A DNA stretch of 64,000 bases from Antedon mediterranea. Taxonomy: Eukaryota > Echinodermata > Crinoidea > Comatulida > Antedonidae. Where the stretch lies: assembly GCF_964355755.1 (NCBI RefSeq), contig NC_092674.1, positions 6,019,001 to 6,083,000 on the forward strand, written 5' to 3'. This document shows positions 2,183 to 48,533 of this stretch, one piece after another. The translations under genes and the position numbers were made by a program. Each line of letters opens with the position of its first letter. Position 1 is the first letter of the stretch. The notes under the pieces are model-generated. The model made no database searches. It was not told the DNA's origin and saw only the letters and a program-made list of their open reading frames with translations.

Positions 2183-5100
2183 CTGTGTATTTTCTTTCTT
2201 GGGTATAATTGCTGTTCCTTTAACCTCCAAAGCTGGGTCTTTTATCGTGGTACCTTCTTCATCCTCCTCATCCTCGTCTACATCTTCGTATTCATCATCA
2301 TCATCGTCTTCTTCATCATCACCCTCGTCATCACTGATAAATATTATTATTAATATAAATTATAGATTTTGGAAAGACGCTGAACATTTTGCAATTTTTT
2401 AAGTAGTTTATATCGGCTGCTGCTTTTACAGATTTTTTCGAGAGCTTTTCCAACTTTCGTAAGTCCTTGATTGACACTGAAGTGTTTAAGGTGAATTATG
2501 TTGCCAAACTTCCGACAGCATAATAAAATTAAAATAAACTTTGTTTGAAGCTCTTGAAAAAAAACGTAAAAGCAGCAGCTTATTTAAACTAAACTATTTA
2601 AAAATATATAAATTATACAAAAACAACAAAAGCACTATTCTTCCAAATATGGGCATTTTTAATTTTCAAAAAGATTTTACCTACCTGAGAGAACCCAAAA
2701 TATCAAGCTGGTCAGCGGCCTCCAACGTGCCTTTTACCTCTTCTATACCATCCTCACCTAAACAGTTACCTACAGAAATAAGACATTTTTAATAATAAAT
2801 CAGGCTTACTGTATATAGCTTATTACGCAAAAGCAAACAAACGGTAAGATTAAAAATTAAACTCCAAAAATCATTAATCCTTAACTTACCATTAAGGTCT
2901 AATTTTTCCATAGCTTTTCCATATAAACTTTCAACAATTTTAACAGCTGCTAAACTATTAATTTCACCAAAGGCTAAATATAATTCCTGAAAATAAGATA
3001 AAAACAAAGGCATGTTAACCACCAAGCGACAGCTCCACTACAACCACCAAGCTACAGCTCCACTACAACCACCATGCTACAGCTCCACTACAACCACCAA
3101 GCTACAGCTCCACTACAACCACCAAGCTACAGCTCCACTACCATCAAGCTACAGCTCCACTACAACCACAAAGCTACAGCTCCACTACAACCACAAAGCT
3201 ACAGCTCCACTACAACCACCAAGCTACAGCTCCACTACTATAAAGTAACTCTGTCCAATCTGAATAGCAGCGCATTATGCCACTCTTGTTTTACATACCT
3301 TAAGGGCAGGAACCCCATTCTTTAAGGTGTCTGCTAAAGCTTCTGCTCCTTCAGACTTCACTAAACAGTCGCCAAAGTTGATTACTTCTAACTTATCAAG
3401 ATGTTTAATTGACTAAAACAAAAGAAAGGAATTCCATCAAATCACTAAAGAGAGTTTGTACGTTTGATATAAACCTTTTAGCTATTGCAAGCATTTATAC
3501 ATATGGGGTATGAAAATAACCGTAACTGTAATGGGAAGATTTTTAAATACATTTCAATCAAGCGGGTAATCAATAAAACTAACGTTTTACTAGGTTTAAC
3601 TATAAAAATATATTTTTGCAAAAAATTTGACTACATTAACTAACCTTTGCCATGGATATAGCTCCTTTTGCTGTAAATGTGTTGTCATTTAAATTAATAA
3701 CCTGTGGGGAAAACAAATCACATACTGTAGATTTGAGGACTTTGTTGGTACAAACAAAAACAACATGTGATCATGACATTCATATCTCATCCTGTGTAGG
3801 ACACTAGGGAGCTTTCAAAAAAGCAAAGTGGGTTAGGCAAACCAGAGACAGCCCCTTTAGGCAACGCCCAATCACATTGCCTGTTCAACGGTCTGTGGAA
3901 GTTTTCTTGTATCCGCATGCGCATTGCAAATTGCACACTTCTGCGTCTTCTGTTTCGAAAGTTCTCTATTGTTGTGAGGTGGTTTCCTGAATAATCGTAA
4001 AATCAGAACGGTACTGGGTATGACCAACTAGCGTTCTTTTCACCAACTAGCCATCCATTCATAGAAGTACTGATGTAGCAGCCTAACTGTACGGCGACCA
4101 TAGAATGTGACCTTACTTTTAATGAAAAAGCTCCTTTTAGCACTATATTAGTATGAAACTAACTAAAAATATTACATAAAATTTCTTTTTGAACAACCAA
4201 AAATAGTATAAGCGAACTTACAGTACGTTTCGAAACCTATCAGGTTTCATTCTCAACTGGCGTTTCATCGTCTAGCGTTGTTAATCCCATGACGACGATG
4301 AGTTGGTATGAATGAAACCTGATAGCTTATACTATTTTTGGTTGTTCAAAAAGAAATTTTATGTAATACCTATTCCACAACCAGATGAAATTCTTCTAAC
4401 TAAAAATACTATAGAATCTTTACAATATGGAGGTCAGGCTTTGTAAGTTACCTTGAGGTTTTTGTTGTAAGCTAAAGATTCTGCCAACGCTGTGATCCCT
4501 TCATGATTAATTCCATTCTGAAACATCGCAATCTCCTCTAACGATTTTAAAGTCTACAAAAAAAAAATTAGATTTAAGTTTCAAATAATAAATGTTTTTT
4601 CAATTGAAAGATATATTTAATCCTACTTATTCTCTACTTACAATCCCTTAAACTCTGTCCACACTATCAAACTTTATGTGACAAAAACATTTGATGTGAT
4701 AAAAACATTTGATGTGCCCATATATGGACATGATGTCATATTCTACCATATTTGGGCATATCACTAACATATTTGGGCACATCACACTTTCTTTGTCAAA
4801 CTAGTTTGACAGTGTAGACAGAGCTTAACAGAATGTTAGCTTACCTTAAATGCCTTTGCAAGAGCTATAGCGCATGGGTTCTCAAGCCTGTTACGTCCAC
4901 ATATGAATACTTTAAGTTCTAATGGTTTTCCTGCTTGTGTGCTTAGCTTATGACATTCAATCAGTGCTTCTGCTAAAATCTAAACAATATAAGGAATAAC
5001 ATCACATTAACTAGAAATAATTGAGTATATGAACAAGATCTGTGTGCGAACAGGAACCACGTCATTTTAATCCAAGTCTTTGGAGCACAAAGTTGTGAGA

Positions 5101-7513
5101 ACAGTGTTTATAGTATGACTACATAAAATAAATAAACTACCATTTAATTTATGTCCCAAGAATGCAGAATAATTATTTATATTTATTTTTGAAAACCAAT
5201 TTTTAAATAAGTAATCTGTGGTCTCTATCATACAAATTTTCTAGTTCCCTGAGACCTCATTTCATCATTTTCTTGAAACACTGTACATATTATTTTTATT
5301 GTCATTTGATGAATAAATGTATTTATCTTTGGGACAAAACAAACTGTCCCTTTAATAGGGCTTTTACTGTAAATGGGTTCTACATTACAAGCTACAACAT
5401 ACATACCTTTCCTCCAATGCCAAGACCATTGTTGTTGAGCCTAAGTTCTTGTAATGAGTAACATGCAGTACTTGTAAGCAGCTCTTTGAAGGCTTTTACA
5501 CCATCAGGTCCAAAAGCATTGTCACTTAAATCAAGCTCAACTAATCTGGCACTGGATTTTATAATTGCACCACCTAGGCTCCTCTAAATTATTAAAAAAA
5601 AGATGATTTAAAATTACACCCCCTAGGCTCCTAAAAATTAGAAAAAAAGATGATTTAAAATTATACCACTTAGGCGCCTCTAATTATGAAAAGTGATGAT
5701 TTATAATTGCACCACTTAAGCCGATTTTCCACTAGGCGAATTTTTTCGCGCGTTTCTGTCTGTCATACTGCCTTCTTCGACGAATTCTAGTTCCTTTGAT
5801 TTTTCGCTTCAGCAAAATTTACTAGTTCGAATTGTTTCTACTTTTTGCAAAGCGAAATATTGCGCAACCAATCAGAGCTCAGGAAATGAGCTATGACGCT
5901 TTCATGAGCACTCATGCGAATCGAAATGCTCAGCAACCACGCGAGGAACATGAACGTCGCAGCTATTCGCTCATGTAGTGGAAAGAGAGTAGGCGATTTT
6001 TTTCTCTTCGAAACGTTGGATTCGCGCGAACAAATTCGCCTAGTGGAAAATCAGCTTTAGGCTCCTCTAAAATATACTGTATTAAAAATCCCAACAGAAT
6101 CTTACCAAGGCAGGAGGAATTTCTGATCGCAATCTTCCAGTAAACATGTCACTCCACCTGGCTCTCTGAAGGAAATATTCAAAAGAATTATTATAGCATT
6201 GCATAAAGCTGTTTACACTATCAAACCTTATATGACAAAAAAATGTCATGTACCCATGGACATGATGATTTCATACCACTATCATATTTGGTTATATCAC
6301 TACCGTATTTGGGCACATCACACTTTTTTTGTCAAACTAGTTTTATTTGATGATAGTGTGGACAAAACTTAACAATTCAAATTTGATTTAGAAATTGATC
6401 AAATTAGTAAAAATTAATTATTTTAGTAGTTTATTCACAGTAGGCCCATGAAATATCTTTTAAAAAATGGGGGATGGGGAATGAAAAGTATATATTAAAT
6501 ACTGTAGATTAATGCAGTAATTATTATTATTAATTATGCAGCAGAGATATGGAAGAGCCTGAACATAATATAATGGGTCCCACCCGCCTGGGGATGTACT
6601 CAAGATGAATGTCCTACCTGAAACTCAGGTCTTTTTTCTAATGCTTTAGCAATGGCTTCTGCTGCTTCAACTCCAAGTGTGTTTCCTTCTAATCTTAATG
6701 ACTGCACATCTTTTGCCTCTTCTATTGCATTCACAATTGGTAAAGCTGAAAATGAACAAATTGTTCAATTATTATACTGTCCTGCAATTCCAACAAATTC
6801 TGTACAATTTTTTTGTTTTCAATATGCCATTTTAATGTCACATAATAGTTATTCACTTTCACAAAAAATTTAAACTGTAGTGCAAGTAATTTAAAGTCGA
6901 ATTGACTGGAAATCAATAGGTTTATGGTTGAATTTAACAGTTTATTTTATTTTTTTTTTAAAGTTTAAAAAAATTTTTTTTCTTTATTTAAAAAATTCTT
7001 TTTTAATTATAAATCTTTAATAGTTTGTCTTGATTAATAATAGGATAGGCCTACCTAGGCCTATATTTGATTAAATTATTATTAATATTAAATTATTATT
7101 AATTACCTAATAATTATTAATCATCCCATACAAAAAAGTAAAAATAAGGTAAGTTTAAAAAAACAAAACATCATTGCATCAAGTTAAAGTAGCCGAGTGG
7201 GTGAGTCACGACTTATTTATGGAGAAAGGCATTCATGGTTTTCAAAATCATATCCATGAAAGCCGTGTTTCTAAAAAGGCTAGGCCTAGGCCCACCATAT
7301 AGGTCCCTCAAGAAAAATGGGACATGCCGCTTTCTGCACACAGGACACCCTCGCTCTGTCGCCCGCTGGAAATTCGAACCCCTGTTCTAAACTCTCACCA
7401 TCTTTGGCCTCGTCTAACTTCAAACTTTGTCCTTTGAACGATACTTCATTAATCTTGTCAACTTTAGCTTCTGCTAGTAGGTTTGTTACACTTGATATAT
7501 CGGATGTAGACAT
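2183..7513 (-). CDS. RANGAP1: Ran GTPase-activating protein 1, N-terminal 407 residues (3' end outside window)
   Basis: RanGAP1 stimulates GTP hydrolysis by Ran on the cytoplasmic side of the nuclear pore. Eleven coding exons read in order on the minus strand: 7399-7513, 6618-6745, 6106-6165, 5407-5583, 4845-4979, 4452-4553, 3645-3701, 3299-3412, 2890-2986, 2685-2769, 2183-2333. All have GT-AG borders and matching phases and sum to 1221 nt. The protein starts MSTSDISSV, then has SFKGQSLKL, a leucine-rich-repeat domain with the signatures [13 protein letters not shown] (holding the arginine known to be essential in the family), [27 protein letters not shown] and [14 protein letters not shown], and [15 protein letters not shown]. 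The last exon seen is the acidic run of Asp/Glu that follows the repeats in this family. The C-terminal domain (SUMO/Ubc9-binding in vertebrates) was not found in 1-2182 and must lie to the left. Start: first ATG in frame, matching the usual N-terminus length. Divergent from SPCS3. Confidence 0.95.
3020..3240. repeat. 25-bp minisatellite, about 9 copies
   Basis: Unit ACCAAGCTACAGCTCCACTA plus ACAAC, head to tail in the RANGAP1 intron between the exons ending at 3299 and 2986. One copy is shortened. The open frames across it are an effect of the repeat. Confidence 0.9.
4171..4367. mobile_element. Fold-back element with ~43-bp inverted ends
   Basis: Left end ATTACATAAAATTTCTTTTT is repeated inverted at the right end, together with the adjoining ACCAAAAATAGTATAAGC. 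A second inverted pair (AACCTATCAGGTTTCAT type) lies inside. In a RANGAP1 intron. Confidence 0.7.
4650..4828. mobile_element. Family-1 MITE in RANGAP1 intron
   Basis: Ends AACTCTGTCCACACTATC and GTGTAGACAGAGCTTAA, flanked by TAA on both sides. Carries two internal 21-bp units. Its right end is 16 bp from the exon ending at 4845. Confidence 0.8.
5556..6075 (-). repeat. Tandem copies of a RANGAP1 exon start and acceptor, one split by a MITE
   Basis: The first ~28 bp of the real exon (to 5583) with its acceptor recur near 5608-5640, 5655-5690 and 5704-5718 + 6057-6075 as decayed copies (GATTTAAAATTACACC, CTTAGGCGCCTCTAATTAT and similar). The fourth copy is cut in two by the element at 5719-6056. 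Confidence 0.75.
5719..6056. mobile_element. PIF/Harbinger-type MITE, 338 bp, TTA duplication
   Basis: Inverted ends of about 34 bp (AGCCGATTTTCCACTAGGCG and its inverse). TTA at 5716-5718 and 6057-6059. Joining the flanks restores CCACTTAGGC, which is present intact in the neighbouring tandem copy, so the empty site is known. A 3-bp TWA duplication is typical of PIF/Harbinger. Confidence 0.85.
6205..6371. mobile_element. Family-1 MITE, diverged
   Basis: AAAGCTGTTTACACTATC at the left and GATAGTGTGGACAAAACTTA at the right, with two internal units. It lies 39 bp upstream (gene sense) of the RANGAP1 exon starting at 6165. Confidence 0.75.
6800..6965. mobile_element. Family-2 MITE, partial
   Basis: Carries the family-2 core AATATGCCATTTTAATGTCA, TTATTCACTTT and GGTTGAATTTAACAGTTTAT. 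Ends decayed. Confidence 0.6.
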
Positions 7514-13035: not shown

Positions 13036-13588
13036 TACTATTATATATTGTTATGCAGCCAAAATTAAGCTAGAAATAAACATACGAATGAAACACAATT
13101 TTAAACTCTATATAGTACATATATTTGTACATATTTTTATTGAAAAGTCATGTAACCAACTCTGTCAGTGCTTTACTAGATTACCAGATTGGTTCACAGA
13201 AATAAAATACATTCAAAATCAACTATAGTATGTACACAATACATAGCTCGTTTGAATCAAGAATGTCAGTCAGTGGGGAGGGTGAAGCTCAGACAATATG
13301 AAGTTTTCAATTTGCGACTACCTAACCAGGTCAGGCCAATTGATATATGTCATCGGTTGGACCTAAAAACCATCACAACTGTACCGACATCCCCTGCATG
13401 CGAACAGTGAATAAACATTGACGTTATTTGGTCATTAGTCGTCGCAAAATGAATGCTTCCTAATATTAATGTAAACGAGTATAATAATATACTCGAATAC
13501 AATCCCACGCCCAAACGAGTATACACTATACTCAAATATAACTCCACACCCAAATTTATATTTGACATAAGTATCCAGCAGTAGTCCT

Positions 13589-13717
13589 AAGCTCTGTCCA
13601 CACTATAAAAAAAAAGTGTGATGTGCCTAAATATGGTAGTGATATGACATCATGCCCATATATGGGCACATCACATTTTTTTGTCGCATAAATTTTGATA
13701 GTCTATACAGAGCTTTA
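13589..13717. mobile_element. Family-1 MITE
   Basis: Ends AAGCTCTGTCCACACTATA and GATAGTCTATACAGAGCTTTA. The odd right end GTCTATACAG is shared only with the copy near 47.7 kb. Confidence 0.85.
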
Positions 13718-13819
13718 CAAGTATAATTGAAAGTTAAAACTAAAAACATAACTTTATAGTATCATTACTCAATCGCATTGAATCAATCTTTATGGAATTC
13801 TACCTGCAAGTCAAATGAA

Positions 13820-15270
13820 AATTCAGGTTCACTAATAAGTTTGATATACAAAACAAACTCCAAAATCACAATAGCTTGTCTCACTTTTTTTCCGATATTG
13901 TTTTAAATACTTAAAATAGTTCCCTCCATTAAATGTACCCTTAACATGTTAAAATCATTGAGGGAATTTCCTATGTTTCTTTTTGTTGTGACTTCACTCT
14001 TAATTAAACTGTCCACTTTCCTATCCATAATAAGTATTATAATTCAAAATCTAATGATTCTATTTCATTTTGTCAACTTGGTTTGTGAAATTGTAAGTGA
14101 ATCTGTCTGTTCAACAAAAACAAACATGTTAACATATATTTCTACTTGATGTATGCATTAATTTCCTACTAAAGTTGTAAACAAATATTACTAAATATTT
14201 CAATTTATTAGTTAAATAAATATGAGTACCTTTCACCTTGTTATGATAATATGAGTTTCTAAACTAGAGAATAACTTCTCAAGGAGATATTAGTAAAGCA
14301 TCCAAAATAATTGGACTACATGAATCCAAGGATTTTATAACATATAATATAAATTATATATGATATTATTAATAGATTCTGTTCTAATTAGATCATTAGA
14401 GCCTCTATTAAAGGAACACCTGCATAACCAAATTAAAGTGTCTTATATGAAATTGTCCCCTTAATAGAGGTACATACATAACCCAATCAAAGTGTCATAC
14501 ATGAAATTGTCCCCTTAATAGAGGTGCCCAAAAGGAAGGTTTATACCATATCTGACAGCAAAATTAATTACAAAATTAACATCAGCCCATTAACCGTATT
14601 TTAACATTGGCCTATATCGTTTCTTGTAGTTTTATTGTCTTAATTATGCAAAGCAAAATGAATTTCCATTTTAAGTTCACCAATGAATCTTGACATCTAA
14701 CTTTGTGACATAGTTAAGTATTAGGATACATTTAGTAATAATTCAAACTAGAACACTAGACTGATAAACAACACATTTTAAATAAATTATCAAAAAAAGT
14801 AAAATAAATCATCTTCATAATCTCATTGTACAAAATTGTTGAAATTTCAATTAATTAAAAATCATATCAACTAAAAATCAATCAATTGAAAATCAATCGA
14901 AAATCAATCAATTGAAATAAATCAATTGAAAATTAATCAATCAAAAATCATATCATTTAAAAATCAATCAATCAAAAATCATATCAATTATAAATCAATC
15001 AATGGAAAATCAATTGAAAATTAATTAATTGAAAGAAGAAATAACCAATCAGGTGTTTTATGTGCAAAAAAAAATGTTTTTGAAAAATTGAAGTTTGAAT
15101 GACACACAATGACATACTTTCGTTCACCAAGTGACACATTTGTTTAATGATGCATGTCATATTGCAATCATTGGGGACTTCATTTGCTCTTCTAGTTGTG
15201 ATTAATAATCAATTACATTAATTAGAAAAGTACACAAGGTGCATAATAATTATGTGTATTTGCAGAAATT
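13820..15270. other. AT-rich intergenic stretch with simple repeats
   Basis: No gene seen. 14401-14530 holds two copies of a CCCTTAATAGAGG-type fragment of the CAGTAGAACC element group. 14855-15025 is a loose array of AATCAATCAATTGAAA. Confidence 0.5.
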
Positions 15271-17287: not shown

Positions 17288-20200
17288 CTATAAGTCACGC
17301 GTTTGGTAAAATAAAATGTAGCCAGCGTCTGAATTCTTTTGTACGTCCGTCGTTAAACCGAAGAACTCCTCTATACTTGATACGTCAATTTTCTGTCAAA
17401 AGCAATAACAAAAATTATTTATATATTTTCTGTTGAATACAAGCTATGACCCTAAATTTCAATCAAAAATCCAGGAACTAACCACTGTGGTACATCTTAA
17501 AGCTCTGTCTACACTATCAAACTAGTTTGGTAGCGATATGACATCATCATGTCCATATAAGGGGAAGTCAGATTTTTTGTCACATAAAATTTGATAGTGT
17601 AGACAGAGCTTTTAGTTTTTTGGTGAAAAAGTGCAATTTTGTATATGGATATGCTACGGGTCAATATTGAAATTAAAATATTGTAAATATTTTTACATCA
17701 TCTGTTTCGCCCACGAACACTTTTCAAATAAATTGAATTTTAATGACAGTGTACAGTACAATCAAAACATAAGGAAATGTTACAATTACTTTCAAGGAAG
17801 TGTTTTTATGTGTTTGTAAATTTAACAATTACAATCAATAATGTATTAAATTTTGTACATAAATTACTGAAAGATATATAGCTACATGACATTTCAAATG
17901 AAAAAAAAAATATTGAATATATATTCACTGCTGACATACCATGAAAATTATTAGTTACATATTTTACTGATTGAGATTGATAGCCTACTATTAAGTGTTT
18001 CTTGAATGTATAAATAATATATTTAAAATTGTAAAACAAAATATCCATATTCTAGGAGCTTAAACTATGTTACACAATGTTATGATATAATAAACATCAA
18101 ATATGTATATAACTACAAAAATGTTCTGAAAAAATCAATGAAATAATTTAATTTATTTATGGAAATTTTACAATTTTGCAATATAAAAACATGGGAACTG
18201 ATTGGAATGCATGAAAGCATTTGTAAGTATGCTGAGAATGTTGTATTTGGTATACTGTAATGTCTGTATTAGTGCCAAATAATCAATGTTTATAAGTGTA
18301 ATGGTACAAATAATGGCAAGAGGTGAATGATGAAAGGTTATATTTCAATGTTCAATAGTGTGTACTATTGCACGCCATGTGACTAACAATCGTCCAATCA
18401 AATGACAGGAATTTCTTTAGGCGTTATATAATACAATCTATATTATACTTACTTCTACAATGTCATCATCAAAGAGTAACCAGAATCCATGACTTTTAAC
18501 AATTGTTATATAATGTCCTCTATTAGGTCCACTGCAAGATAACAAATAAGATTTAATAGTAACATTGTTTGAAAAGAAATACTGAAGCCCTACCTACACT
18601 ATCAAACTTTATGTGACAACAAAATGTGATGTACCCATATATGGACATGATGATGTACCAATATGGACATGATGATGTCATATCACTACCATATTTAAGC
18701 ATGTCACTACCATATTTGGGAACATTACACCTTTTTTTGTCATACTAGTTTGCTAAGCTAACGTATAGTTACTACTAGTTAATTAAGCATGGTTCCCCCT
18801 GAAGATGCAACGCATAGTTGACCAATCCACAATCGACAGTTCGGGTGATCCATCATGTCTAACACTTGTCATTGGTTAACTTGCTTGCATTGCGCTTACG
18901 TCATTGCGTCGTGTCCTAGATGCGTCGCGTCCTAGTGGAAACTAAGCTTTAAAAATACAGTAAAACCTCTCCATTGGTACACTCCTATTATCGGGAAACT
19001 TTAACCTGAAAAGAACCAGGGGCAATATATGTTTTAACGCTAATGGCCAACCCCTATTTTAAGGTTCCTACATTTACACAGAAACTTAAACGCAGAAGAA
19101 GCTAAAAAAGCAATGGAAATCCAATAGAGAAAGTACATTTATTAACAGTTAACAGTTTTATTTATTTATTTCCTTTATTGCATCAAGTAAGCAGTGATGA
19201 AGTTGACATAAATATAATAGTAAATATGTAAACACATAGTATAACACAGTCCAAACAAGTAATACTAAAATATATCATAGTCCACAAATCAGTCTTTCAA
19301 TGGCCATCATAGTAAAGTACATCCAGTAACACAAACCAATAGAGGTTCACAATTTGCTTATCATAACTCAGTTACTGATCATTCACCAATCATTGAAAAC
19401 TCCGTGGAAAGTAATGAAGTTTTTGGTGCGTTGTTTCCGGACTTTGGGGAGGGTGAACAATCTAACGCGTCGGAGCTGATGGTTGTGTGTGGGAGGTTTA
19501 GGTAAGAGAGAGTGTAATATATGATCTTCTTTTTTCATTTATCAAAGAATTTTCTTGACAACTTCTCGCGGCGTTCAGATAGAGTGATGATGTTAAGGTA
19601 TCTGCGGGTATCAGCATACGAGGTACCATCGGGGCATATTATGTTACACGCTCTTCTTTGGACATGTTCGATTTGGTCAGATTGTGCTTTGGATAAACTC
19701 GGGGACCAAACAGCACAGGCATATTCGAGAACTGGTCGTATCACTGCTTGATAGTATCGGAGCAGTTCCAGTCTATCTAGGCAAGACCTCTTGAGTTGCT
19801 TAAGAAAAAACAACCTTGGTACAACGCGCTTGGTTAAACAGCATTGTTGTAATATGCCTGTATTATATATGTATATTGAATTAATATATTTATGAATTTA
19901 ATATATTAAATGTTAGAAGCCTCTATGAATAAATATTATGCATATATCTACATAGTTTATGTGTGTACAGTTAATATATTAATAGTTAGAAGCCTCTAAT
20001 CTAAAGCTCTGTCTACACTATCAAACTTGTTAACAAAAAATGGTAGTGATATGGCCAAATATGGTAGTGATATGGCCAAATATTCAACTTTACTTTATTC
20101 ACATCATCATACATAAATAGTACAATACAATAAAATGTATGTGTGTGTGAAAAGGAGCTACAATATGGTAGTGATATGGCCAAATATGGTAGTGATATGG

Positions 20201-23200
20201 CCAAATATGGTAGTGATATGGCCAAATATGGTAGTGATATGGCCAAATATGGTAGTGATATGGCCAAATATGGTAGTGATATGGCCAAATATGGTAGTGA
20301 TATGACACGGGCACATCACATTTTGTTGTCACATAGTTTGATAGTGTAGACAGGGATTTAGAAGCCTCTTATTTAATAAATATATCTTATGATAGCAAAT
20401 GATTAACTTAATATCAGAACAATGAATAATCAATAAGTTGAATGTGAACATAATGACAATGTACAAGTGTTTAAGTGGACTTATTCAAGCAAATCCACTT
20501 ATGTTGCTACTTTGTTAAATTACCATATATCATCATAAGAAACACCTAATGAGATCCATGAATACTGTGTGTTGATTATGAGAACATCCAACTTAAACCA
20601 ATTGTGTAGGTAATTTATGCTATAAAGTTGAAGTTCTATCAGTGCATTAGTTATTAACTCCCACATGTTCCTATTTACAATCATTTTTTTTTTCATTTTT
20701 TTTTAAAAACCATATTTGGTTCCATCCAGCTAATGCTGATCATTAAGGACCCTCAGAGGTTCACAAGACAAACATATACACAAGATGCTCTACATAAACA
20801 AAGTCTTATTACAAGTCTTTGGGAGTGGAGTTGTAATTTGGTCCTTAGAAAAAAATTCTGACATGTGACGTCATAATGACGTCATATCACTACCATATTT
20901 GGGCATATCACACTTTTTTGTCCAACTACACTAGTTTGATAGTGTAGACAGAGCTTTAGCTCTTACTTATAATGTATTTGATTGCTTTGTTCAATTTTTA
21001 TTGAAATGAAATAAATGAAATGAATACAAAAAATGAATAAACGAAAAATACCTTCCACAGTGGATGACAACAGATACTAAATCATACAGCTTATGAGGGC
21101 AGTCTGCATCGTCTGACTACAAAATAAAAACAAAAATAATCAGTACAAAATTAAGCATGGATGAATAAATGAATGAATACAAAAATAGAATGGATGAATG
21201 CAAAATGATTTAATTGAATAAAGTATAACCTATCCTTTGGGACAATCTTATTCTAATAATGGAACATTTTCCTATAAAACTAAGAAGGAGCAATTACAGC
21301 CAACACCTTGGTTCATGAGAAACTCTATTAAGGGGACACTTTGATGGGTCCTGAAATTGTCCTTTAATAGAGGCTTAATACATTAAGATATAAATGCATG
21401 AAAGAAAAATGCTCAAATTAAATTAAAATGAAAGAATCATAATCAACCACCAAATAAATAATGTAGAGTGAATTTTTAAAAAGACAATGACTGATTAAAA
21501 CACTAGATAATAATAACACAACAAAACTAATTATCATAATGGTGTTACTTACTGTGTTCATCAGCCTAAGTTCGAGTGGAAACACGACTCTGTATGAGAG
21601 TTTCGTAAACCTATGCAACTGTTCCATATATTTAAACCTCTTCAAATGCAACGCTAAAATCTGGGGTAATTTCTTTATTTGCATTCTAGTGAAAATATAA
21701 ATCGTATAAATGTCCAATAAATTGATAAGCATCAATATATAAATTATGAAGACTAGTAATGAGTTTTTTGTCATCCAAAAACATGAAAAATTAAAATAAA
21801 TAAAATTAGATTTTGATAGGCCATTTTTTAGTTTTAATCAAGTATATGTTGAATTGAAAAATGTTGAATTGAATTACTTCTGTAGAAAAGCAGAATAAAC
21901 AATGTTTTCACTTATAAAATGGTTGAATTCGACCAAAATCAAATTATAAACAATTTTGAGGAAGATATTAAATAAACACAAAAAAATGTCATCAATTAAT
22001 GAAGAAGCTAGACCATGTTTTTAGTCGCGTGCAAACCCGACTCTATAGCTCACTATGTCTGTCTATCGGTCGGTAAACATTAACTCAAATTTGAGCACGC
22101 GAATGCAGCCATGTATATGGCCTTGTTATTAAATATTTATATTCCAGGATTTCCTTATGTTGTTGAGATGACAAATATCAAAGTGTAACGTTAATCCAGA
22201 AGGTAATTGCAAAACCAAGACATGATCTATTCTCATCAACTGCAAATTACACAGACTGATTCTATTTACGTCGGCGATAAATGGAATAACACACTTTGTA
22301 GTCACGGTAATTATTGTCGAGTAAATATTAACATTTGCAGTTTACAAACGCAGTCTCAGCAATGATTGTTGATAGATAGTTGATTAACAAAATTGAAACG
22401 CATCAGTATCTAGTTAACGATCACAAGACAGAGAGCGATTATCGATAGGCTCAAGATTAAGTGATATATCTATACTCATCAACTTATTTACACACACATG
22501 ACAAAAACAGTACTAACAGAATCATTATTATATGTGAAAAGGTCAGAATTGTTGGCAATAATTGCCTCGTCCTTCAGATAGGCTGTTAAGCTGTTGGTTC
22601 TGTGTACATTAATATAGACATACATTGTACACTATTTGAAAAAAGCAGAGATTCATATAATAGGCTCTGCACCGTTGCGGTTAACCCAACCTCTGACCTT
22701 AACTCCAGTAATATACAAATTTACAAACATATACATGTACAGTCAACTCTCCCAATACCGGAATCTCTTGACAACTAGAAACTCTCCTAAACCAGACTTC
22801 AAAAAGGTCCCAAATTCATCTTTACCATTAAAACATATTCCAAATACCAGACGTTCCAGAAAACCAGACATATTTTAGGCCAGTACAAAGGTTTCCGGTA
22901 TTGGGAGAGTTGACTATATTAGTACTACCTACTAGTTCTGTAGGCCTACTACTAGGTAGCCTTATATGAGATTAGGCTCAAGTTTTGTAGGTTACCTTTT
23001 TTGTGCTTCCTGCTTGCTACAACATGTCTCACAATAATATTTGTATTCACAACATAAAGTTTCTGTATTACTAAAAACCCTGTAAAAACAAACATAAATA
23101 GTTGTACCCATTAAATATTACACTGCTAGTCCTTGTCTTGTCCCAAATTCTCAGGAAGGCACCTTTCTACTTATCTAAAAATAGCACTTAGCCAAAACTT

Positions 23201-26200
23201 TGTCCTATCTTTTCAACAAAAATTTGTGCATTTTAAGCCAATTTTAATTCCCATTAAGCCTTGTCTACGCGATCAAACTTTATTATTTGACAAAAAAAAA
23301 TGTGATGTGCCCATATATGGACATGGTGATGTCATATCACTACCATATTTAAGCATATCACCTACCATATTTGGGCACATCACACTTTTTTGTTAAACTA
23401 GTTTAATAGTGTAGACAGAGATATTTTATTTAGACTGTTTGGCTAATACCACCAAATTTCTAACAAGATGGTGCCTTTCCATTGAATCAAAATGGCTAGA
23501 TATACGTGGCTAGTATTATATTCCAAAGCTTCTCAATTTACTCAAAATCTGAACTTGCCTTAAACAATGTGTTATCGACGTGTTCTGCTCGACATCAACG
23601 GATAAGTCAAGAAAATCCTCATCCTTGCTGCTCACGCCCTCGCAGGTTAGACATCTCGTCTCATTCGTTAACGTTCCCTGAAATATTTCGTGGATCCACG
23701 TTGGGTCCGTCTTTGACGGGTGGTGGTTGATCAACATGCCGTTGGTTTGCGGACCGTTGGCTTTGTTTTTTCCTCCTTGTTTTTCTTGCTTCTCAGCTAA
23801 AAGGTTAAAGGGCAAGATATTATGAAAGGTTAAAGGGCAAAGATATTATGAAAGGTTAAAGGGCAAAAATATTATGAAAGGTTAAAGGGCAAAGATATAA
23901 TAAAAGGTTAAAGGGCAAAGATATAATAAAAGGTTAAAGGGCAAAAATATTATGAAAGGTTGTAGGGCAAAGATATTATGAAAGGTTAAAGGGCAAAGAT
24001 ATTATGAAAGGTGAAAGGGCAAAGATATTATGAAAGGTGAAAGGGCAAAGATATTATGAAAGGTTAAAAAGCAAAGATATTATGAAAGGTTAAAGGGCAA
24101 AGATATTATCTATATAAATGTTATTTTAATATCTTAATGATTATTACATTGAATACAAAATGTTCTGTTCATTCCCTCATTAGTACTTTGCAATAACAAA
24201 TTAGGTAATGACACACAACCTTAATATCAAGTTTCATACTACAGTACACAATACTATTGTACATAGGCCTACAGTAGTATTGTACAGTATATCAAGTTAC
24301 AAACTACAGTGTACTACTACTACACATAGTAATAATATTGTATGTAAATTATTTTGAAGTTAAAAAGTGGTGTAACGACTATAAGCTCTCACTGGCTAAA
24401 CCCAGGGCGGCCCCAGAGTTTATGGGACCCAAGAGGTTATGGGGCCCCAGAGGTTATGGGGCCCCTGAGGTTATGGGGCCCCTGAGGTTATTGGGCCGCT
24501 GAGGTTATGGGGCCGCTGAGGTTATGGAGCCCTGAGGTTATGGGGCCCCTGAGGTTATGGGGCCCCTGAGGTTATGGGGCACCAGAGGTTATGGGGCACC
24601 AGAGGTTATGGAGCCCCAGAGGTTATGGGGCCCCTGAGCAGTGCACAGAGATAAAAAACAGGCATTAAAATATGCCAAAAAAGTCTAAAAAAAGCCAGAG
24701 GCCTCCTCTTCAAAAACAACAACCTGCCTCAATGCACCCCTTTTGTATTCAAGACACATTACAATTCAAAAAGCACTATAAAATAACTACTGTACACTAT
24801 AATTTATGCGTTATCTCGACCTTCATCAACAAGGCCTGGGTTCGGTCCACATTTGCACTAGGTCAATGCAATTTAAATCACAAATTTCTCTCAAGCTGTG
24901 AACATAATTAACTAACTAAAATAATCAAATATTTTTACATTGATAATATTGCAATAGCTTCAACATTAACGGAATGTTTGGTAGCTAAGAATGAATTCCC
25001 TCGTTAACTCGCTCTAATGACATCACTAAATTACAATTAGGAAGATAGTATAACAAGATTTCACCGTCTATTGAAATCGAATACCGTACCTAAAGTCAAA
25101 TTGAGGCATTTACAGTAAATATTTAGTTTTCACTTTCACATGTGAAATACAATGCACGGTAAGCCTATTGTTATGCGACCTGTGTTATGAATGTTAATGA
25201 ATACAATAACAAAACCCACTGCTAGCGATTTGCAAACAAAACACTTCAGTTAATGTAATAATAATTAAATAACTTTAATAACAGTTAACATTCAAGAATT
25301 CAAGAGAATTCCAGAAGATGTTTATGTCAGTAAACTGGTGTAGAAATGGAATTATATAAATTACATTTAGTACCACTGTATTGAGTTTTTTTAGTTTTTT
25401 TTATTTAAAAAAATCCTCCTGATAGGTCCAAATTTTGCTTGCAATTTACCATATATGATTCAAGTATAATCCCATGCTTAAGTATACAGTAATCCCACCC
25501 CTAATTTAGGCTAAATATGGACATATGTCTACTGAAACTAGGGACTAATAGTTGTACCTCTACCTGTCTATCGCGGCATAATACATTTGAACATATTGGC
25601 ATGGAAGTAAATTGGAATCCTCAATAATAAGCTATACATAACTTGAAATATTAGCTATACATACAGTACCTAGTAATAATATATACCTTGTAATAAGCTA
25701 TACAGGGAGCTATACATACCTTGTAATAATACATACCTTGTAATAAGTCAGCTATCGTGTTTAACAGGTAGATTAAAAATTCATGTGCATCTTGCTGCAT
25801 ATAATTATCAAATAGTTCTGAAAATAATTTTTAAAAATCATATCAAACAAAAGTCACTGTATTATAGCACTATATAAGGAGGTAGTAACATCTGAATGAA
25901 AGGTATTTATAACAACTTGGGGCACTGGATTTATTATATAGTCATCATCATTCATCTTTTATTTCGGAAAAAAAAAATTCTCCATAGCTCAATAACAAAT
26001 TAGTGTACATTATTATAAATATAACAAAAATATATATATATAGGTATATACAAAAAAACCTACGCCACATATGAAGCAGAAAGTTCCAAGTTCGAATCTT
26101 GGTTGGGGAGGCTTTTTCTCACAGATTTCCTCATTTTATTCATTCAAATTAATTAATTACATTCAGTATATCACTGCGTGATTTAGAATTTATTCTGTGC

Positions 26201-29200
26201 CTGTTTATTTATATGTTATCAATTACATTTTTATTACTTGGCAAAATGCTTATAAAGCCTTTGCCAAGTAACTGTAAATTTCTTGCTTTGTGTGTCTGTT
26301 TGTTCAGGCGATAACAATCACAATTTTCAATTTGTTATCCTGAATTTCTTTTTGTTTTTATAATATAATAACAAATAATAACACAAATAATAAACAAATA
26401 ACTATAATATCAACAGACAATATTTTGATGGCATCACTAAAGCTTATTAAAATCTGTTATCTTTTGTCTTCAATTATTATTATTAACATTTTTTTTTTGG
26501 TCGAAATATTTACTGTAGTATTTACTTTCTGAATTTGGCATTTAATTGATTTTTCATATCACCACCTTTTATTTTTTATTTCTTTTATATTTTTCCAAGT
26601 ATGACATCCATTTGATTCAGTGAGGTTGTACATTTTCTTTCATCCTACTTGTGAAAACAAATTACCAAGTAGAAAGCAAGACTTATTCTATTGTTCAAAT
26701 GGTTTATCTATTCGTTAAAACCAATTATGACCATATGGACGCAACACATCCAATAATCAATAGTAATGAAATATTGACTCGATCAGTATCAAACGAATGA
26801 ATGAATAGAATTAACGCACAATTTAACAGGTACTGTAGCCAATATTTAATTGTTTGCGATACACAAGGATGTAATTGTGCCGAGTGGAGGCAAGGCCAAG
26901 GCTACAAGAAATGCTGAGATGAGCAAAAGTTTATATTTTCGAGGGCTTATGCTCTGTCTACACTATCAAACTAGTGTGATGTGCCTAAATATGGTAGTGA
27001 TATGCACAAATATGGTAGTAAAATGATCATCGTGTCCATATATGGGTACATCACACTTTTTTCGTTACATATAAGTGTAATAGTGTAGACAAAGCTTTAA
27101 AATATGGACTTTGACTGATTATCTTTTAATTGCTTACTGTATGTAAAAAAAGTATTTATGCAATATGTAATATAATTAACAATCTTCAGGTTTGAATACA
27201 TAAGCTCTGTCTACGCTATAAAACTAGTGTGATGTGCCCAAATATGGAAGTTTTATGCAAAAATATGGTAGTGATATGACAACATCATCATTAATAGTCT
27301 AGACAAGGCTTAACACACAGACATTACAAACAAAAAGTGGTATTGGAAAATACTGTATTGACATTTGCCTTTATGAGATGAATACATAAATATTCATTAC
27401 ACCTTTGTCAGTCAATGGTACATTCCATGAAACCTGCCCCCAAGTAGGAGCATCCAAACACAACATTCATCATTTCTTTTCTCAAGATAGAAAAACATAG
27501 GCCAATGTCCGTTTATCCAGGTAAGCTAGGCACCAAATAGACACCAATGTACTTAACACTTAGGGTACTTGAAATACCACCAATAGGTCTTTCATGATAC
27601 TAAGTATTTAGGGAAGCATGGACTTCCTCCATGGGAAGGAAAAGTAAACTCAGGTGTGAACAAAATTTCGAACGGATAAAAACCACATTCACTCCCGAAT
27701 CCCACATTCCCAATGAGACAATTTGAAAATGTTGTCTCGTAATCATTCTTACCGTTTTCTTTCCTTAATTTGGCAACAAATTTCTTTGGAGCGATTACCC
27801 CGACTTTCTTCTTACTGGTTGTTATACTGTTGTAAAGGTCAGACAAACAAGAAAGTAGTGTTTCCTTCTTTTTAGGCTGTGCTTTGTAACCAAGAACACG
27901 TTCTCTAAACGGCTTACAGAAGTACAATGCTTGTAACACAGAGTTACAGTAGCAGGTATTTCCAAACTGTTGACAAATAAAACATTTACAAGTTAGATAT
28001 TTAGTTAATTAAATTCCTTTTCTTTCATTTTCAACCCAATTGTACAAACTGGAAGTCCAGTGTACACATTTGGCTTGTATCCAGAACCAGAACTGTACAT
28101 TTTTCGTAAGAGTAGGTGGTTACTCCAATGTACTAATCCATTCTGCCCCTCCGTCGTTGTGGACAGACGAACGGGCGCCGTTTGGTGGCAGCACTCAACA
28201 TGAAGGGACCCTTAGGGGAGAGGAAAGTTGTAGTATGTGTCGTCCACACCTGTGCACAATTCAGCACAGTAGGCTGCAAGTCACAGGTTATTCCCCCATT
28301 TACACGTCTCATGGTTTCCAACAAATTAATTGCATTGTTAGTTATAATACTAATAATAAACGATGGGAGCTGGAATGGACCAGAATACTGATGTGACCTC
28401 GCTACTCTTACTAAAAGATGTACTGGGGACTGTACACTGGATTTCCATATTTAAGTCCGTATTCGAGAAGAATGTTTCCGTCAGACCTTACTATGGCCAA
28501 GGAGTGTTTGAACCAGTGCCATATAATGGTGGCTGTGGTTTGCGGTACCACTGAAGGAACCGATAAGCCAATTGAGTCGACTTACTGTGTGGGATTTATC
28601 TGCATATCTGTACGGAAATTACGACCGCATTCCAATTGAATGGGCTGCTTTCAACAAGACACAATATAAAATATTATATCAGCATCATTAATAAAATCAT
28701 TATTGGTTGTTATTATATTAATTAGATTTCTATGAAATATTTAATTTAATACTTACATTGACTAGACCGAAATAATGCTCATTGGGCGGAAATTGATCAG
28801 AGCCAATTTCCTTTTCCAAGGCCGATGCATTGGCGCCCTACAAAATTAAAATACGACATCTCAATTTAATATTTAAAATGCATTAATATTAACGTTAATT
28901 AGCATTTTACCATTCATAATTATCAAGAATATAATATTTGTATTAGTACAAGTACGGTAATGAAAAACCACTAATAATACCAATATTAATGTATTCATGT
29001 GACGTATTAGAATAAATAGCAATAATAATAAAATAATAATAATATAGCATTGTTCTGTTGTATTATTACTATTATTGAATTACATCAATATAATGTTGCA
29101 TGAATGCACAAATCATTAGAATAAATAGGCCTACATTTAGGCAAATACTGGTTGGTCGTTCTCCTAAATTATGTCACAGTATAACCCTACAGTATACCCT

Positions 29201-38024: not shown

Positions 38025-41000
38025 TTACATGCCGCTGTATGCGGGCCCACCACCAGCTTCCGGTACGACCCAGTTGATGTTCTGACTTGGATCTTTTATA
38101 TCGCATGTTTTGCAGTGTACGCAGTTTTGAGCGTTTATTTGTAATCGCATTCCGTCGCCCTCTTCAACCGGTACATACTCGTAAACACCTGAAAAAAGTT
38201 TGTATTAATATATGATTTAATAAATGTTTCGCCAAATATGACATAGACGCTAGGTGCATGCCTTAGTTTATGACGCCATAATCAGAAATATAAAAAGGCC
38301 TGATAGAGTAGGACACCTATTCTGGGGACACTCCTATTAAGTGGACAATAGGGATTCTACTGTATGAAGATGAATAGCATATCTTTACATAATAATTTTG
38401 AGTGAAAACTATACCACAAGACATGGAGTAAACTATTACCAATCGGTTTCAAACGTTGTATTTAATAATATTCAGTCTTTACCTGCCGGGCAAAACCTTT
38501 GTTCTGGTCCGTCATACACGGCAAGATTTCTCTCAACCGGGACATCATCATTCATAAGCGTTAAATGGGCAGGCTGGTTACCCTCATGGTTTGTTCCGCT
38601 CAATGCGACTGAACTTAGTAAGTCGAAGCTGATCTCGCCATCTGGTTTAGGATATTCAATAGGGGTGCATTGTGAGGCTGGTTTTAAGGTCTCGGAATCC
38701 TTATCTAATAAGAAATCAATACAATATTATTATTATTGATATGTATATAGAAGAACCTCGATGAAGGGAGAACTACAGTATCAGGTAAATGCGGGTCTCC
38801 CCTGAAGAGGTTAATTATTGCCAAAAAATGGGCTTGCAAAACAAGGAAGACCAGCACTCATATACATTGATGTACTATAGATAGATACTGGTATGCAGAG
38901 AGAAGAACTAGCTGTCACAATGGCAGATAGGAAATTATGGAGGAATCTAGTCATATAAGTTCTAGTATGTCCCGGACTAAGTAAGTATATTTTCCTTTGT
39001 GAAGCAAAATCAGATGAACAACTCACGTTTATGTTTTAAAGTCCATGGTTCTTTTCCCCTGCCGATGAAATAGAATAGTCCTGTATACATCATGGTCCCT
39101 AGAACTCCAAGAGGTGAGTGAAAGGATGGACGGATGTTCCGTACGGAATACAACTCCTTCCAAATCCAACTACTCTTGATGCGATCTTCATAATCATCAC
39201 AATAAATACCTAATTTCAAGACAACAAATTTGTAAAAAAAAGGGATGATCATTTTACGTGGGTTACATTACAGATGGATGGGGAGACCTTGGAACCCAAC
39301 ACTAGGCCTAGAGGAGCGATCAATCACTGTTTACCCGAGTAAGTGGTCAAGCGGTTAAGACAGTGGAAGTGTAATTATGTAGCCATAACATCGGCAAGGG
39401 TTCGAGGCTCAATTGCTCCATGGTTCTGGTGGTAGAAACTTTACAGTGTACACATCTAGCTCATACAGAATACAGAAATTTATTGGTCCAAAAGGAAATT
39501 CGTTTTGTTGAAAAGCTCTCAAATAATTAATTATAAATATATAAATAGTCATGAATACAAAAATACAAGATCTTATCAAAATATGAATAAACATCAAACA
39601 TAGAAAAAAATATAAAAAATACTATATCGTAACATATAAAAATATAAAAAATATATATATATATATTAGCAGTATTATATACAATTAAAACAAATTACAT
39701 TTTCAATCTATCTTTTAATAGTTGCGTTATATAAATGGCAAGAATTTGGAACAAAAGACTTTCGAAGACGATCATGATCTCCTCTTAGTGGACGTAGCCT
39801 GATACCCGATCTGTTTAAAACATAGTACTTATTTAGTGGGTGTGTGTGGTCATTCATAATCATGTTAACTTTATGTAATACTCTTTTTTCATATGTTTGT
39901 TGAATAGTTGATAGGTCAGAGCCAATAATTTTGTCAGCACGCTTCCTAACTCGTTCTAATTTTACTTTGTTCTCATTTGTAAGACCAAAAAACAACGATA
40001 TTAAACTAATGGTTAAATGTGCCTAGTACATCTTTCGAGACGAGTAGGGGTTACCACGGTGTACTAGAACATCACAGCCACTCATCATCATAACTGGGAC
40101 CTCTGGGAGACCAGTCGGCCAGTGTAAATAAATAACAACAAACATACCTGCTGTTTCTGATGTTAAATTTTCATTGCTGAGTTTGTCAAAGATTGATTCT
40201 GCCGCCAGCATGCCGCTCTTCATTGCGTTATGCGTTCCTTTAATCTTTGGTACGTTCATAAATCCAGGACTGCAACCAACTAATACGCCACCAGGAAACG
40301 CCAACTTGGGAATGGACTGGAGAATAAAATTAATCGGTAAATATACGCTTGATAATTTATATATCAACTGTACAGTCAATTTTCCCACAACTCTCAGAAA
40401 ACATTCCATAAACCAAAACCAACAGTAGAATGCCATTAAGAGGACATCTTCGGGACCCAAAAAAGTAATAGGGGTGTCTGCTCTTTAGGGGTTGGCCGTT
40501 GTGTTTAAGTGGTGCCTCAAAAGGAGGAGTTCCACTGTTTTTTTACAGGGGGAGCAATACAAATAGCAATACAAGAAGAACATGTTAATAATACAATAGG
40601 ATAGGATGAGGACAGTGAATGCACAGACTCACCATTACAAGTACTCGTTGTTGTTGCTGGGATACGACATTATAATAAAAGATATATTAGTTGGTTCTTT
40701 TGTCTTTTATATTTTTTAAGGAAAGCCAAGATATTAGCACTGAAATTTTCAGTATATTGGATAATAAAAGGAATCTGTATCTGTATACAAATAAAATAGA
40801 ACATATTACCTGTAGGCCACCCTCGTTGAGAGCCCTTGCGCCATATGCTATTCTTTTACCGCCTTCAAATGTTGGTTTAATTGCTGGATGATGCTTAAAC
40901 CTCTGAAACTCCTTGTAAGGGCTTAGGTATGGGTTGGTGTAGTCCAAACCAATGACGAAGCCTACCGACACCAAAGGTGAACCTTCATCAAGGTGATATA

Positions 41001-44000
41001 TAAACGAGCCTCCATACGTTTGTATATTCTAATTAAATATGTAAAAAATATTATAATGCAATAAGTATATAAACTAAAGTTACTGTAGATGTTTGTAATA
41101 AGTTTTTGTTTAAAGGTATATAACAGCACAGCCAAAAATGTTTGTTTTGTTTATAGGCAGATTGCCAAGGAGTCTGGAGTTAAGTTGTAAATACAATAGT
41201 TGAATATTATACGGTGTCTCAGTTAAACTATGGAGTGTTAAACACTGTATACAACCTTTCTACAGTATTTTATAATTGATAGCCTTTGGGTATGGAGTGC
41301 CAAACATAATAGGTACAATGTCAAAATTTGTAAATGTATATAATTTTTATTGCACTATGCTGCATCTAATGCTCCGTCTACACTATCAAACTTTTTGTGA
41401 CAAAAAAAGTGTGATGTGCCTAACTATAGTAGTGATATGCCCAAATATGGTAGTGACATTATCATCATGTCCATATATAGGCACATCACATTTTTGTTCT
41501 CCCATAAAGTGTAGAAAAGGATTTAGCAATTGTGGAAATTTGCACATTCTCACAAATATAATTGCATTGCTATAAGCATAATTAAGCTGTTATTAATAAA
41601 CAAAAGTTTTTGTTACCAATGGCCAACCAACAGTGTGTTCAACTTTACCAGGCTCATGTTTAGCTGGATCAATTTCCCATAGCTGAAAAATAAAATAGTT
41701 TATATTGTTTTCTTCTCAAAATTTACGTACTAAGATCATAACAGTACCACAAACTCACATCAAACAGTTCATAATAATAAACAAAAACATTCAAAAAAAA
41801 ATCTTACTTCTTTGATACCAATAGCATATGTCTGAGGATCACAATTTTCCCTTAGATTAAAAGTCTTGTAAAGTTGTTTTGATAGATGTCCATGGCAACC
41901 CTCGCCAAATACAGTTACTTTTGCATGTAGTTCCATACCTCTCTCAAAGTTAGGCTGACAATAAAAGGTCAAAGGTCAACTTTAACAACATAACAATCAT
42001 GGTAGGCACTGTACCAGGTGGGAGGAAAAGAGGAAGAACTAAGAAACACTGGAAAGACAACAACATCAAAGAATGGACCAAACTGACTCACAATAAGACA
42101 CTGAGGGTGGCAGAGGACAGGGCCACATGGAGGAGAGTGGTTAAATCATCTACGGAGCCCCAACAGCCCCTCACTCTCCAAACGGCTAAAGGGTTAAAAT
42201 CAGGTCAAGGTTCACTTTGTTTGTGTATGTTTATCTTAAAGTGATTGAGTAAAGATTTTTTATTAAATCAACATCTAAAATCAAAGTGACACTTCCCATG
42301 AAATTAATAAATATAAAATATATATTTAAAACTACAGTAAAATCAGCCCACATCAAGTGTAGTGTAGACAAGGCTTAATTACCTTAGGTGATCCATCTTT
42401 TGCGATTCCTACATCTGATGTTGCCACACCCTTGACACTCCCATCTTCATGGTATAGAACCTATGATCAATAAAAAAAAAATGTCTGTCAATCTTAACTG
42501 CTGTTGAAAACTATAGCTTGTCTTATTGAAAGGATGCTTTGGAGTGTTTTTCGTTTCTCACTGTTCGATTTATAAAATAATCAATTTTTAAAATGTTATG
42601 ATAGCCCCAATAGTCTATTGGAGTTTCTCTATCAATTTCAAATTGACGTATGATGATTATAGATATATAAAATATTTCTTACCTCACTGGCTGGGTAGCC
42701 AGGGTATATCTCTACTCCAAGCTCTTCCGCCTGTTCACCTAACCACTTCACAACATTTCCAAGTCTGACAATGTAATTACCATGATTGTACATAGGAAGA
42801 CCTAAAATAAGGAAACAGTTAACAGCTATTAGTATCGAAAAGTCTCAAACTCATTATTTGTCTAACCATACTAAAACTCTGTCTACACTATCAAACTATA
42901 TGTGACAATAAAATATGTGATGTGCCCATATATGGACAGGATGATGTCAAATTTGGGAACATCACATTTTTTTGACAAGTTTGATAGTGTGGACAAGGTC
43001 TTAAACATACCTTTCATTATTGGGATTCTAATACTACGTTTCTCTGTTAGAAACAAGAAAACATCTTTCTTTACTTGAGTCTTCATTGGTGCTCCTCGTT
43101 CTTTCCAGTCTGGTATCAATTCATCAAAGGCATGCATCTCTAAACAAGCTCCTGATAAAGTATGGGCACCTAGAAAACATACAAATATATATATAACTGA
43201 ATATCATCGAGCAAAAGCTAGTGGAACTGTAGCTTAGCGTTCAATCACAAGGTCCAGGGTTCGATCTTGAACCTAGATTAGGGTTGTGTTTACGCCCAAT
43301 TGGTTCTACTCCACTGGCTAATCATGGAGTCCTGCCCTAATGAAATTTAGTTTATATAAGCATGATATATTTTATCCCTTCTGTAAGTGGCAAGTTGCTT
43401 GTTGTTGGATGTGTATGAAACAAAACAATTAAGCTATAACCAGAAAATAAAAATTATTGTTTTACTAAATGAATGAGAGCAGCCACACATGAAGCCATAC
43501 ATCACCAGTGCTCCAAATGAAATAAATACAACAAATTAATTTAATTTAGTTAATCATGCACTAACTTATTTTTAAAATACTGCGGTTTGAACAACAATTT
43601 GACCAGGACTGTAAATATTTTTACATCGGTCACTTCTAAACAACACGCAACCACACGTCATACAGTACATTAGTACAATGTTGCTATGTTTAGTGCTACT
43701 ACAATTAGATGGAATATTTAGAGGGTTGGGTTCAATTTTGATTGATTCAGTGAGGTTGATTATTTAGGGGTTACAGTATGTTAAAATAGGAGTACTAGCA
43801 TGCATTTAATTAATGCCTTGTGTGATGCGCATGTGGTACTTTAATGTATATCGTTGTGTGGCATGTAGTGGCGCGTGGTGTTTAGTAGGACCAGTTAACA
43901 AACCTATTTCTGTGGCTTTTTCTACCACACAGACCCTCAAATCATGATTTTTCTCTTGGCTAAGTTGTTTAAGTCTGATAGCTGTTGAAAGTCCCGCTGG

Positions 44001-47130: not shown

Positions 47131-47550
47131 AATAAATAAATAAAATAAATATGTACTTTATTTATGAATTTATTTACTTTTGTACAAAAAAGTAGCAACA
47201 CTTAAATAAATAAATAAATAAATATGTACTTTAAACATTATTATTTGCAATAAATGGCACAGAGTAACTACACTTAAAAATTTAAAACCAATTGTTGAAA
47301 CTATTTAAAGTAAAAAGCATCTGAAATATTATAAATGAATAAATATGTACTTTAAACAATTTTAGCAACGCCAAAGGCCAATATGTTAAAAGCCATTTTA
47401 TGGCAAATGCACCGCCCATGTTTGACACAGTTACACAGAGTTATTTATAGTATTACTATATACACAGTTTATCATTTTAATATTTGCTTTGCTCAATTAT
47501 ATTGGTAATAAAAAGAACACTTGTAACATAGACTGCCACCGCGGATGTAT

Positions 47551-47822
47551 AAAGCTCTATCTACACTACCAAACTAGTTTGACAGTTTGAGTTTGACTAC
47601 TTGCAGGTAGAATTCCATAAAGATTGATTCAATGCGATTGAGTAATGATACTATAAAGTTATGTTTTTAGTTTTAACTTTCAATTATACTTGTAAAGCTC
47701 TGTATAGACTATCAAAATTTATGTGACAAAAAAATGTGATGTGCCCATTTATGGACATGATGATGTCATATCACTACCATATTTGTTCACATCACTACCA
47801 TATTTGGGCACATCATACTGTT
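47551..47822. mobile_element. Two family-1 MITE pieces around a captured segment
   Basis: A left terminus (AAAGCTCTATCTACACTACC) at 47551, then non-MITE DNA 47599-47694, then a second terminus AAAGCTCTGTATAGACTATC at 47695 and a body to 47822. The non-MITE part matches 13717-13811 inverted. Confidence 0.75.
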
Positions 47823-48533
47823 TATTTCATTTTCATTTGTTGATAGAGTCTTCTTAAGCTTTCACTTTTGTGACCATCAATTTTTCTTATTGTTTGTTAG
47901 GCACTCTCTGGTTGTAATCTCTTTCTAGTTGTGTTTTAAACTCATTATTTGACCTTAGAATCTCATTATTTGACCTTAGAATTTACTGCAATGGGCAGTT
48001 AAATTCTTCCTTTTTTCTGAAAATGTAATATGAAAAATATGAGAAGATTTTTTAAATTAAGGCATCGTGTTCTATGTTCCTTATTAAATGTAGAGTGTGG
48101 ACAGAGTTTTAGATTCAACAAGCTGTCAAACTGAGATCTGACTCTTTCCACTTGACTCTGCAACATGAAATTGCTCAATATATTTTTTTCAAAAAATAAA
48201 TAATAGGCTATTGATTTTTTATTTCTCACTGAAAGTATATCTGTCCGATTCCATAAGGTTCAGCGTACAATTGGTATTGTGGAATCCCCGCATCCTAACC
48301 AGACAATCAATTATTACCATGGTAACTATAAACATAGCTGTCAATATAATAAATGGTTTTAGAAATGTATTGTATGTATTATAAGTATTGTAAATTTATG
48401 CTATTGTTTGAGATTAAATTTAATACCGTAGTGTTATACTTGATTGATATTGTTTAATTATACTGGACAAGCTGGATCGCAAGTTTCAATTGAAAAAAAC
48501 ATGAAGATAATTTTTTATATAATTAGTTTTTTT

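Follow-up and report, generated by a model that had tools for sequence, protein, structure and literature searches.

Gene and repeat content of the window

The window, that is, the whole stretch of DNA analysed here, comprises 64,000 nucleotides of the Antedon mediterranea genome (C5:6019001-6083000 of an assembly of 354 Mb in 18 contigs). As listed in Table 1, it contains exons of what we take to be four genes, RANGAP1, a USP12/46-like deubiquitinase, ETFDH and a PPEF-type phosphatase; these names come from tblastn with protein queries and are provisional. Tandem arrays are also found at 23800-24109 (period 26 bp), 54283-54592 (period 78 bp), 55081-55398 (period 79 bp) and 57622-58390 (period 128 bp). 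The feature under study is a short inverted duplicate, one copy of which lies at a MITE at 13.6 kb and the other at a second member of the same family at 47.5 kb.

Table 1. Positions of the genes and of the components of the duplicate pair in the window
Feature	Position	Strand	Basis or remark
Presumed RANGAP1 exons	2687-7513	-	tblastn, protein query
13.6-kb MITE (likely donor), complete, TA at both edges	13588..13717	-	TIR ends read
A-type end of the 13.6-kb MITE, TAAAGCTCTGTATAGAC...	at 13717	minus-strand reading	B-type end at 13588
Unique flank, duplicated, 94 bp	13718..13811	+	two genome matches; runs unbroken past 13812
Presumed USP12/46-like deubiquitinase exons	17294-27963	-	tblastn, protein query
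Presumed ETFDH exons	38028-44585	-	tblastn, protein query
47.5-kb locus (likely acceptor), left outer TIR TAAAGCTCTATCTACACTACCAAACTAGTTTGACA	47550..47584	+	TA at 47550-47551
Junction filler/slippage, three tandem AGTTTGA-like units AGTTTGACAGTTTGAGTTTGACT	47575..47598	+	overlaps left TIR end
Captured copy of the likely donor flank 13718-13811, inverted	47599..47692	-	94/94 identical
A-type MITE end and inner sequence, matching the likely donor	47693..47748	-	one difference (47724)
Acceptor's own MITE core, family consensus GGACATGATGATG, two 21-bp units	47749..47821	+	sequence comparison
Low-copy repeat fragment, LINE-like 3' end	47822..48090	-	interrupts right side of acceptor MITE
Right outer TIR remnant of acceptor, then TA	48091..48112	-	17/20 to family end
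Presumed PPEF-type phosphatase exons	52733-63809	+	tblastn, protein query

The MITE family

The MITE family is abundant, and its members differ from one another by about 10%. The core contains 21-bp internal units (CCCAAATATGGTAGTGATATG) and the two ends are distinguishable, the A end being TAAAGCTCTGTCTACACTATCAAACTTTATGTGAC and the B end TAAAGCTCTGTCTACACTATCAAACTAGTTTGAC; in 39/43 sampled elements the A end lies on the GGACATGATGATG side of the core with the B end opposite. Among the 58 TIR pairs collected, the median length was 159 bp, TA-containing triplets (TAA/TTA) were present at nearly all edges, and inspection revealed no target duplication longer than TA. A short TIR element with TA beside both ends is what is expected of a TA-target MITE. 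A 3-bp TWA (Harbinger-like) target site was considered and rejected; the two sides agree, by inspection, only about as often as chance, and TA is preferred over TWA for this reason. From sequence features, we presume the family to be Tc1/mariner-like, a label that serves as a lead only.

Two further tandem arrays in the window, at 386-1665 (61 copies) and 20162-20304 (6.8 copies), are formed by a 21-bp unit, CCCAAATATGATACTGATATG, and a relative of it. The array unit CCCAAATATGATACTGATATG is nearly equal to the internal unit of the MITE, and the arrays are apparently minisatellites that grew out of the MITE.

Extent and copy number of the duplicate

Positions 13669-13811 and the reverse complement of 47599-47741 are identical at 142/143 bases, with no gap and a single mismatch at 13686/47724. 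This bears out an earlier sequence-only reading of the window, which had described a gap-free match with almost no differences, and the ungapped alignment can be extended to 150 bp (13662-13811 / 47599-47748) with one difference in total. Beyond 150 bp the duplicate decays to the usual MITE-to-MITE similarity (95.4% across 197 aligned positions). The duplicate consists of one MITE end and 94 bp of unique flank, close to the roughly 95 bp of non-MITE sequence that had been estimated; it is inverted, with its copies 34 kb apart on one contig, and near-identity crosses the border between MITE and flank.

When the whole genome (354 Mb) was searched with the duplicate, the second copy was recovered at E = 1.8e-66, and the remaining matches ended at or near the MITE end. 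A flank-only query (13707-13811), run with E up to 10, gave exactly two matches in the 354 Mb, at 13.6 kb and 47.5 kb; the inserted sequence recurs at a single other site in the genome, as in a repair-mediated duplication. The sequence-only reading had proposed this search as a way to separate repeated capture from a local duplication, and the count of two indicates a single local duplication. It had also considered that the flank might be a normal internal part of a longer subfamily of the MITE. Because there are two flank copies in 354 Mb, the flank is no part of such a subfamily, at the sensitivity of a search with E up to 10. Loci L003 and L011, which matched query positions 1-79 and 1-82 at 82-85%, were considered as additional flank copies and could not be confirmed, as the flank-only search (E up to 10) missed both.

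The MITE-end variant GTCTATACAG had been called rare. Within the window this holds, as it occurs only at the 13.6-kb and 47.5-kb copies, but across the genome the 22-mer AAGCTCTGTATAGACTATCAAA is matched exactly at one further site, on C9, and with a single mismatch at many others, which makes it uncommon but short of unique.

Anatomy of the two loci

The 13.6-kb MITE is below consensus length, lacking one 21-bp internal unit and a portion of the B subterminal region, and its core bears a private 24-bp deletion relative to the family consensus. Its A end departs from the consensus at three points, all of them common to the 47.5-kb copy. The adjoining DNA at 13812-14500 is single-copy in the genome search except for one weak 74% match, and no second MITE end was found in this interval beyond the flank. 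On the other side of the MITE, the DNA is single-copy except for a weak old repeat.

The 47.5-kb locus is a composite in which the flank copy lies between MITE termini, as had been noted previously. Its left outer TIR is B-like, whereas an A-like end was found in 42/43 sampled MITEs, with L072 as a partial parallel; the ancestral acceptor can therefore be only partly reconstructed. The last TTTGACT of the filler that follows this TIR is common to the likely donor at the point where homology stops. At the outer junction, TTTGACTTGCAGG in the likely donor and TTTGACTACTTGCAGG in the acceptor are a 3-nt ACT repeat apart, beside the three AGTTTGA units. The breakpoint has microhomology and filler and no polyA tail, and the insertion interrupts a recognisable TE copy, both as expected of repair-mediated duplications. 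The acceptor's own sequence resumes at some point between about 47717 and 47749, and the acceptor core that follows keeps 24 bp absent from the likely donor.

The fragment that breaks up the acceptor MITE on its right side is present in about 10 places in the genome and presumably represents the 3' end of a non-LTR retrotransposon RT, as judged by motif recognition only. Its MITE-side and TIR-side junctions suggest either a 5'-truncated insertion or a second filler. For the right TIR remnant beyond it, 0/2000 shuffled 300-bp segments reached a match of 17/20. The composite as a whole is single-copy in the genome, and so is the sequence on its left side. Loci at C5:7.71 Mb, at C5:7.73 Mb and on C17 were considered as carrying a long element from which the composite could derive, and rejected; all that they have in common with it is the LINE-like fragment and an ordinary MITE, which are separated there by other DNA.

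Evidence for a probable repair-mediated duplication

A single repair-mediated duplication, from the 13.6-kb donor into the 47.5-kb acceptor MITE, probably accounts for the anatomy observed at the two loci and for the presence of exactly two copies. By parsimony, 13.6 to 47.5 kb is the likely direction; we infer both this direction and the break itself. The 13.6-kb locus is assigned as the donor because its flank is continuous and its MITE complete, while the flank at 47.5 kb ends at a filler junction.

Under the proposed mechanism, a double-strand break (or stalled fork) would have occurred in the left subterminal region of the 47.5-kb MITE, and the core-side 3' end would have invaded the homologous core of the inverted 13.6-kb MITE. 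Synthesis would have copied the donor A-type end and then the 94 bp of flank before the new strand was displaced. Rejoining to the acceptor outer TIR would have taken place via the 7-nt microhomology TTTGACT, with slippage at this step leaving the AGTTTGA units and the 3-nt ACT repeat as filler. The process would correspond to synthesis-dependent strand annealing, or to an equivalent replication template switch, in which homology guides one side of the copied tract and microhomology the other. The MITEs would serve only as dispersed homology, and a transposase step would be unnecessary.

Both limits of the copied tract can be compared with this scheme. The acceptor regains the consensus where the donor has its 24-bp deletion, which places the inner switch within homologous MITE DNA, and the outer limit is formed by the 7-nt microhomology and the repeated filler. 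Homology on one side with microhomology and filler on the other is the prediction of one-ended strand invasion, displacement and annealing, and a synthesis polarity running from core to end to flank is consistent with the proposed repair. The three departures shared by the A ends fit copying after the donor MITE had aged, with inheritance within a subfamily as a possible alternative. The B-like left TIR of the acceptor and the 34-kb distance to the donor, greater than is usual for repair duplications, count against the scheme.

Alternative origins of the duplicate

A roughly 34-kb inversion with staggered breaks could also place a short inverted segment at both breakpoints, left by fill-in of the overhangs. 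The two copies have opposite orientations, each turning the same side inward, the presumed USP12/46-like and ETFDH genes lie wholly inside the interval, and none of the four identified genes spans either site; since the genes cross neither site, gene structure leaves an inversion undecided. We consider such a scar unlikely nonetheless, since homologous MITE cores lie in register outside both copies, which under staggered breaks would require a coincidence, and the copy at 47.5 kb terminates at a MITE TIR accompanied by slippage filler. Homologous recombination between the MITEs would leave the flank unduplicated. The in-register cores and the filler junction favour copying, with inversion the less likely origin. 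Copying could alternatively have been started by a transposase, if aberrant excision or transposition of the 47.5-kb MITE left a gap for which the 13.6-kb MITE and its flank served as template in abortive gap repair. TIRs and TA are present at both outer edges of the acceptor, and foreign pieces (the flank and the LINE-like fragment) occupy its interior. Filler DNA after DNA-transposon excision has also been documented in rice (PMC4423477). However, the flank copies are identical at 94/94 positions against about 10% divergence within the family, so that the duplication is apparently younger than the MITE burst, and a spontaneous break gives the same structure; a role for transposase seems quite improbable.

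The sequence-only reading had pictured a pair of MITE ends moving the DNA enclosed between them, and the flank at 47.5 kb does lie between two TIR-bearing MITE pieces. This picture is not supported by comparison of the two loci. No second MITE end borders the 13.6-kb flank, the composite is single-copy with no further copies in the genome, and its boundary at 47.5 kb is formed by slippage filler and microhomology in place of a clean TIR/TSD edge. Multiple TIR/TSD-bounded copies with the same captured DNA were not found by the genome search, which gave one copy only, and we regard composite transposition as very unlikely. We give just as little credence to an assembly artefact, in the form of a chimeric or duplicated contig piece. 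The near-perfect identity of the copies might raise this concern, but their surroundings are different, and the 47.5-kb copy is accompanied by its own consensus-like MITE core and by filler, which a misjoin would not create.

Comparison with known systems

Over a thousand repair-mediated duplications (RDs) were described in human TEs by Pace et al. 2009 (PMC2671141). These RDs have one other genomic location, with a median length of 147 bp and a maximum of 619 bp among proximal ones; their breakpoints show microhomology of 2-9 nt and filler of 1-68 nt, and they were attributed to synthesis-dependent strand annealing (PMC2671141). Donors lay within 5 kb in 824/1,136 human cases, and in 58 cases the two sites shared a chromosome but were separated by more than 5 kb (PMC2671141). 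The duplicate described here resembles RDs (PMC2671141) as a copy of about 150 bp from one other place on the same chromosome, inserted in a TE, its breakpoint marked by microhomology and filler. It differs from most human RDs (<5 kb) in that the donor is 34 kb away, proximity being typical of RDs and not obligatory, and from RDs in that homology between MITEs directed one side of the event. The RD survey covered vertebrates (PMC2671141), whereas the present case comes from Antedon mediterranea, with a genome of 354 Mb. It fits RDs in all tested points except donor distance and is a further example of an already described type of small duplication.

In rice, filler DNA at DNA-transposon excision sites averages 13 bp, with a range of 1-123 (PMC4423477). 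The present case resembles these sites in having foreign filler, copied in by SDSA, at a DNA transposon (PMC4423477). In contrast to the rice sites, the outer TIRs and edge TA are still present at 47.5 kb, hence no excision is evident. Pack-MULE-like gene capture also places host DNA between the TIRs of a non-autonomous element, an arrangement shared by the 47.5-kb locus. Here, however, there is one copy, the composite shows no sign of ever having moved, and what was captured is intergenic DNA.

Frequency of flank duplication at MITE ends

The 80 bp outside each of 176 MITE ends, from the window and fetched loci, were searched within their own stretch. The 13.6/47.5-kb pair was the sole strong non-MITE flank duplicate among these ends, and the other matches were MITE-to-MITE; the sample is a small part of the genome, covers local partners only and serves as a rough guide. 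It gives little support to MITE-guided duplication as a route. We think it doubtful that one-sided break repair in this genome regularly uses dispersed MITEs as homologous landing sites and so repeatedly copies the unique DNA next to them from one locus to another. Read as a repair-mediated duplication, the pair is a clean record of homology-seeded, microhomology-resolved repair between two MITEs, and illustrates how unique host DNA can end up inside a MITE that did not transpose it. A single case alters no general view and would gain larger weight if a genome-wide count showed MITEs doing so often.

At another locus (L039, 1503-1880), two family MITEs are separated by about 30 bp, and a shared short flank (TTAGAATTAGAACTAATTC...CATGG) follows both of them; the stretch of about 30 bp adjoining one B end is repeated, with a few differences, beyond the next. 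This is a tandem duplication of MITE and flank, older than the 13.6/47.5-kb pair.
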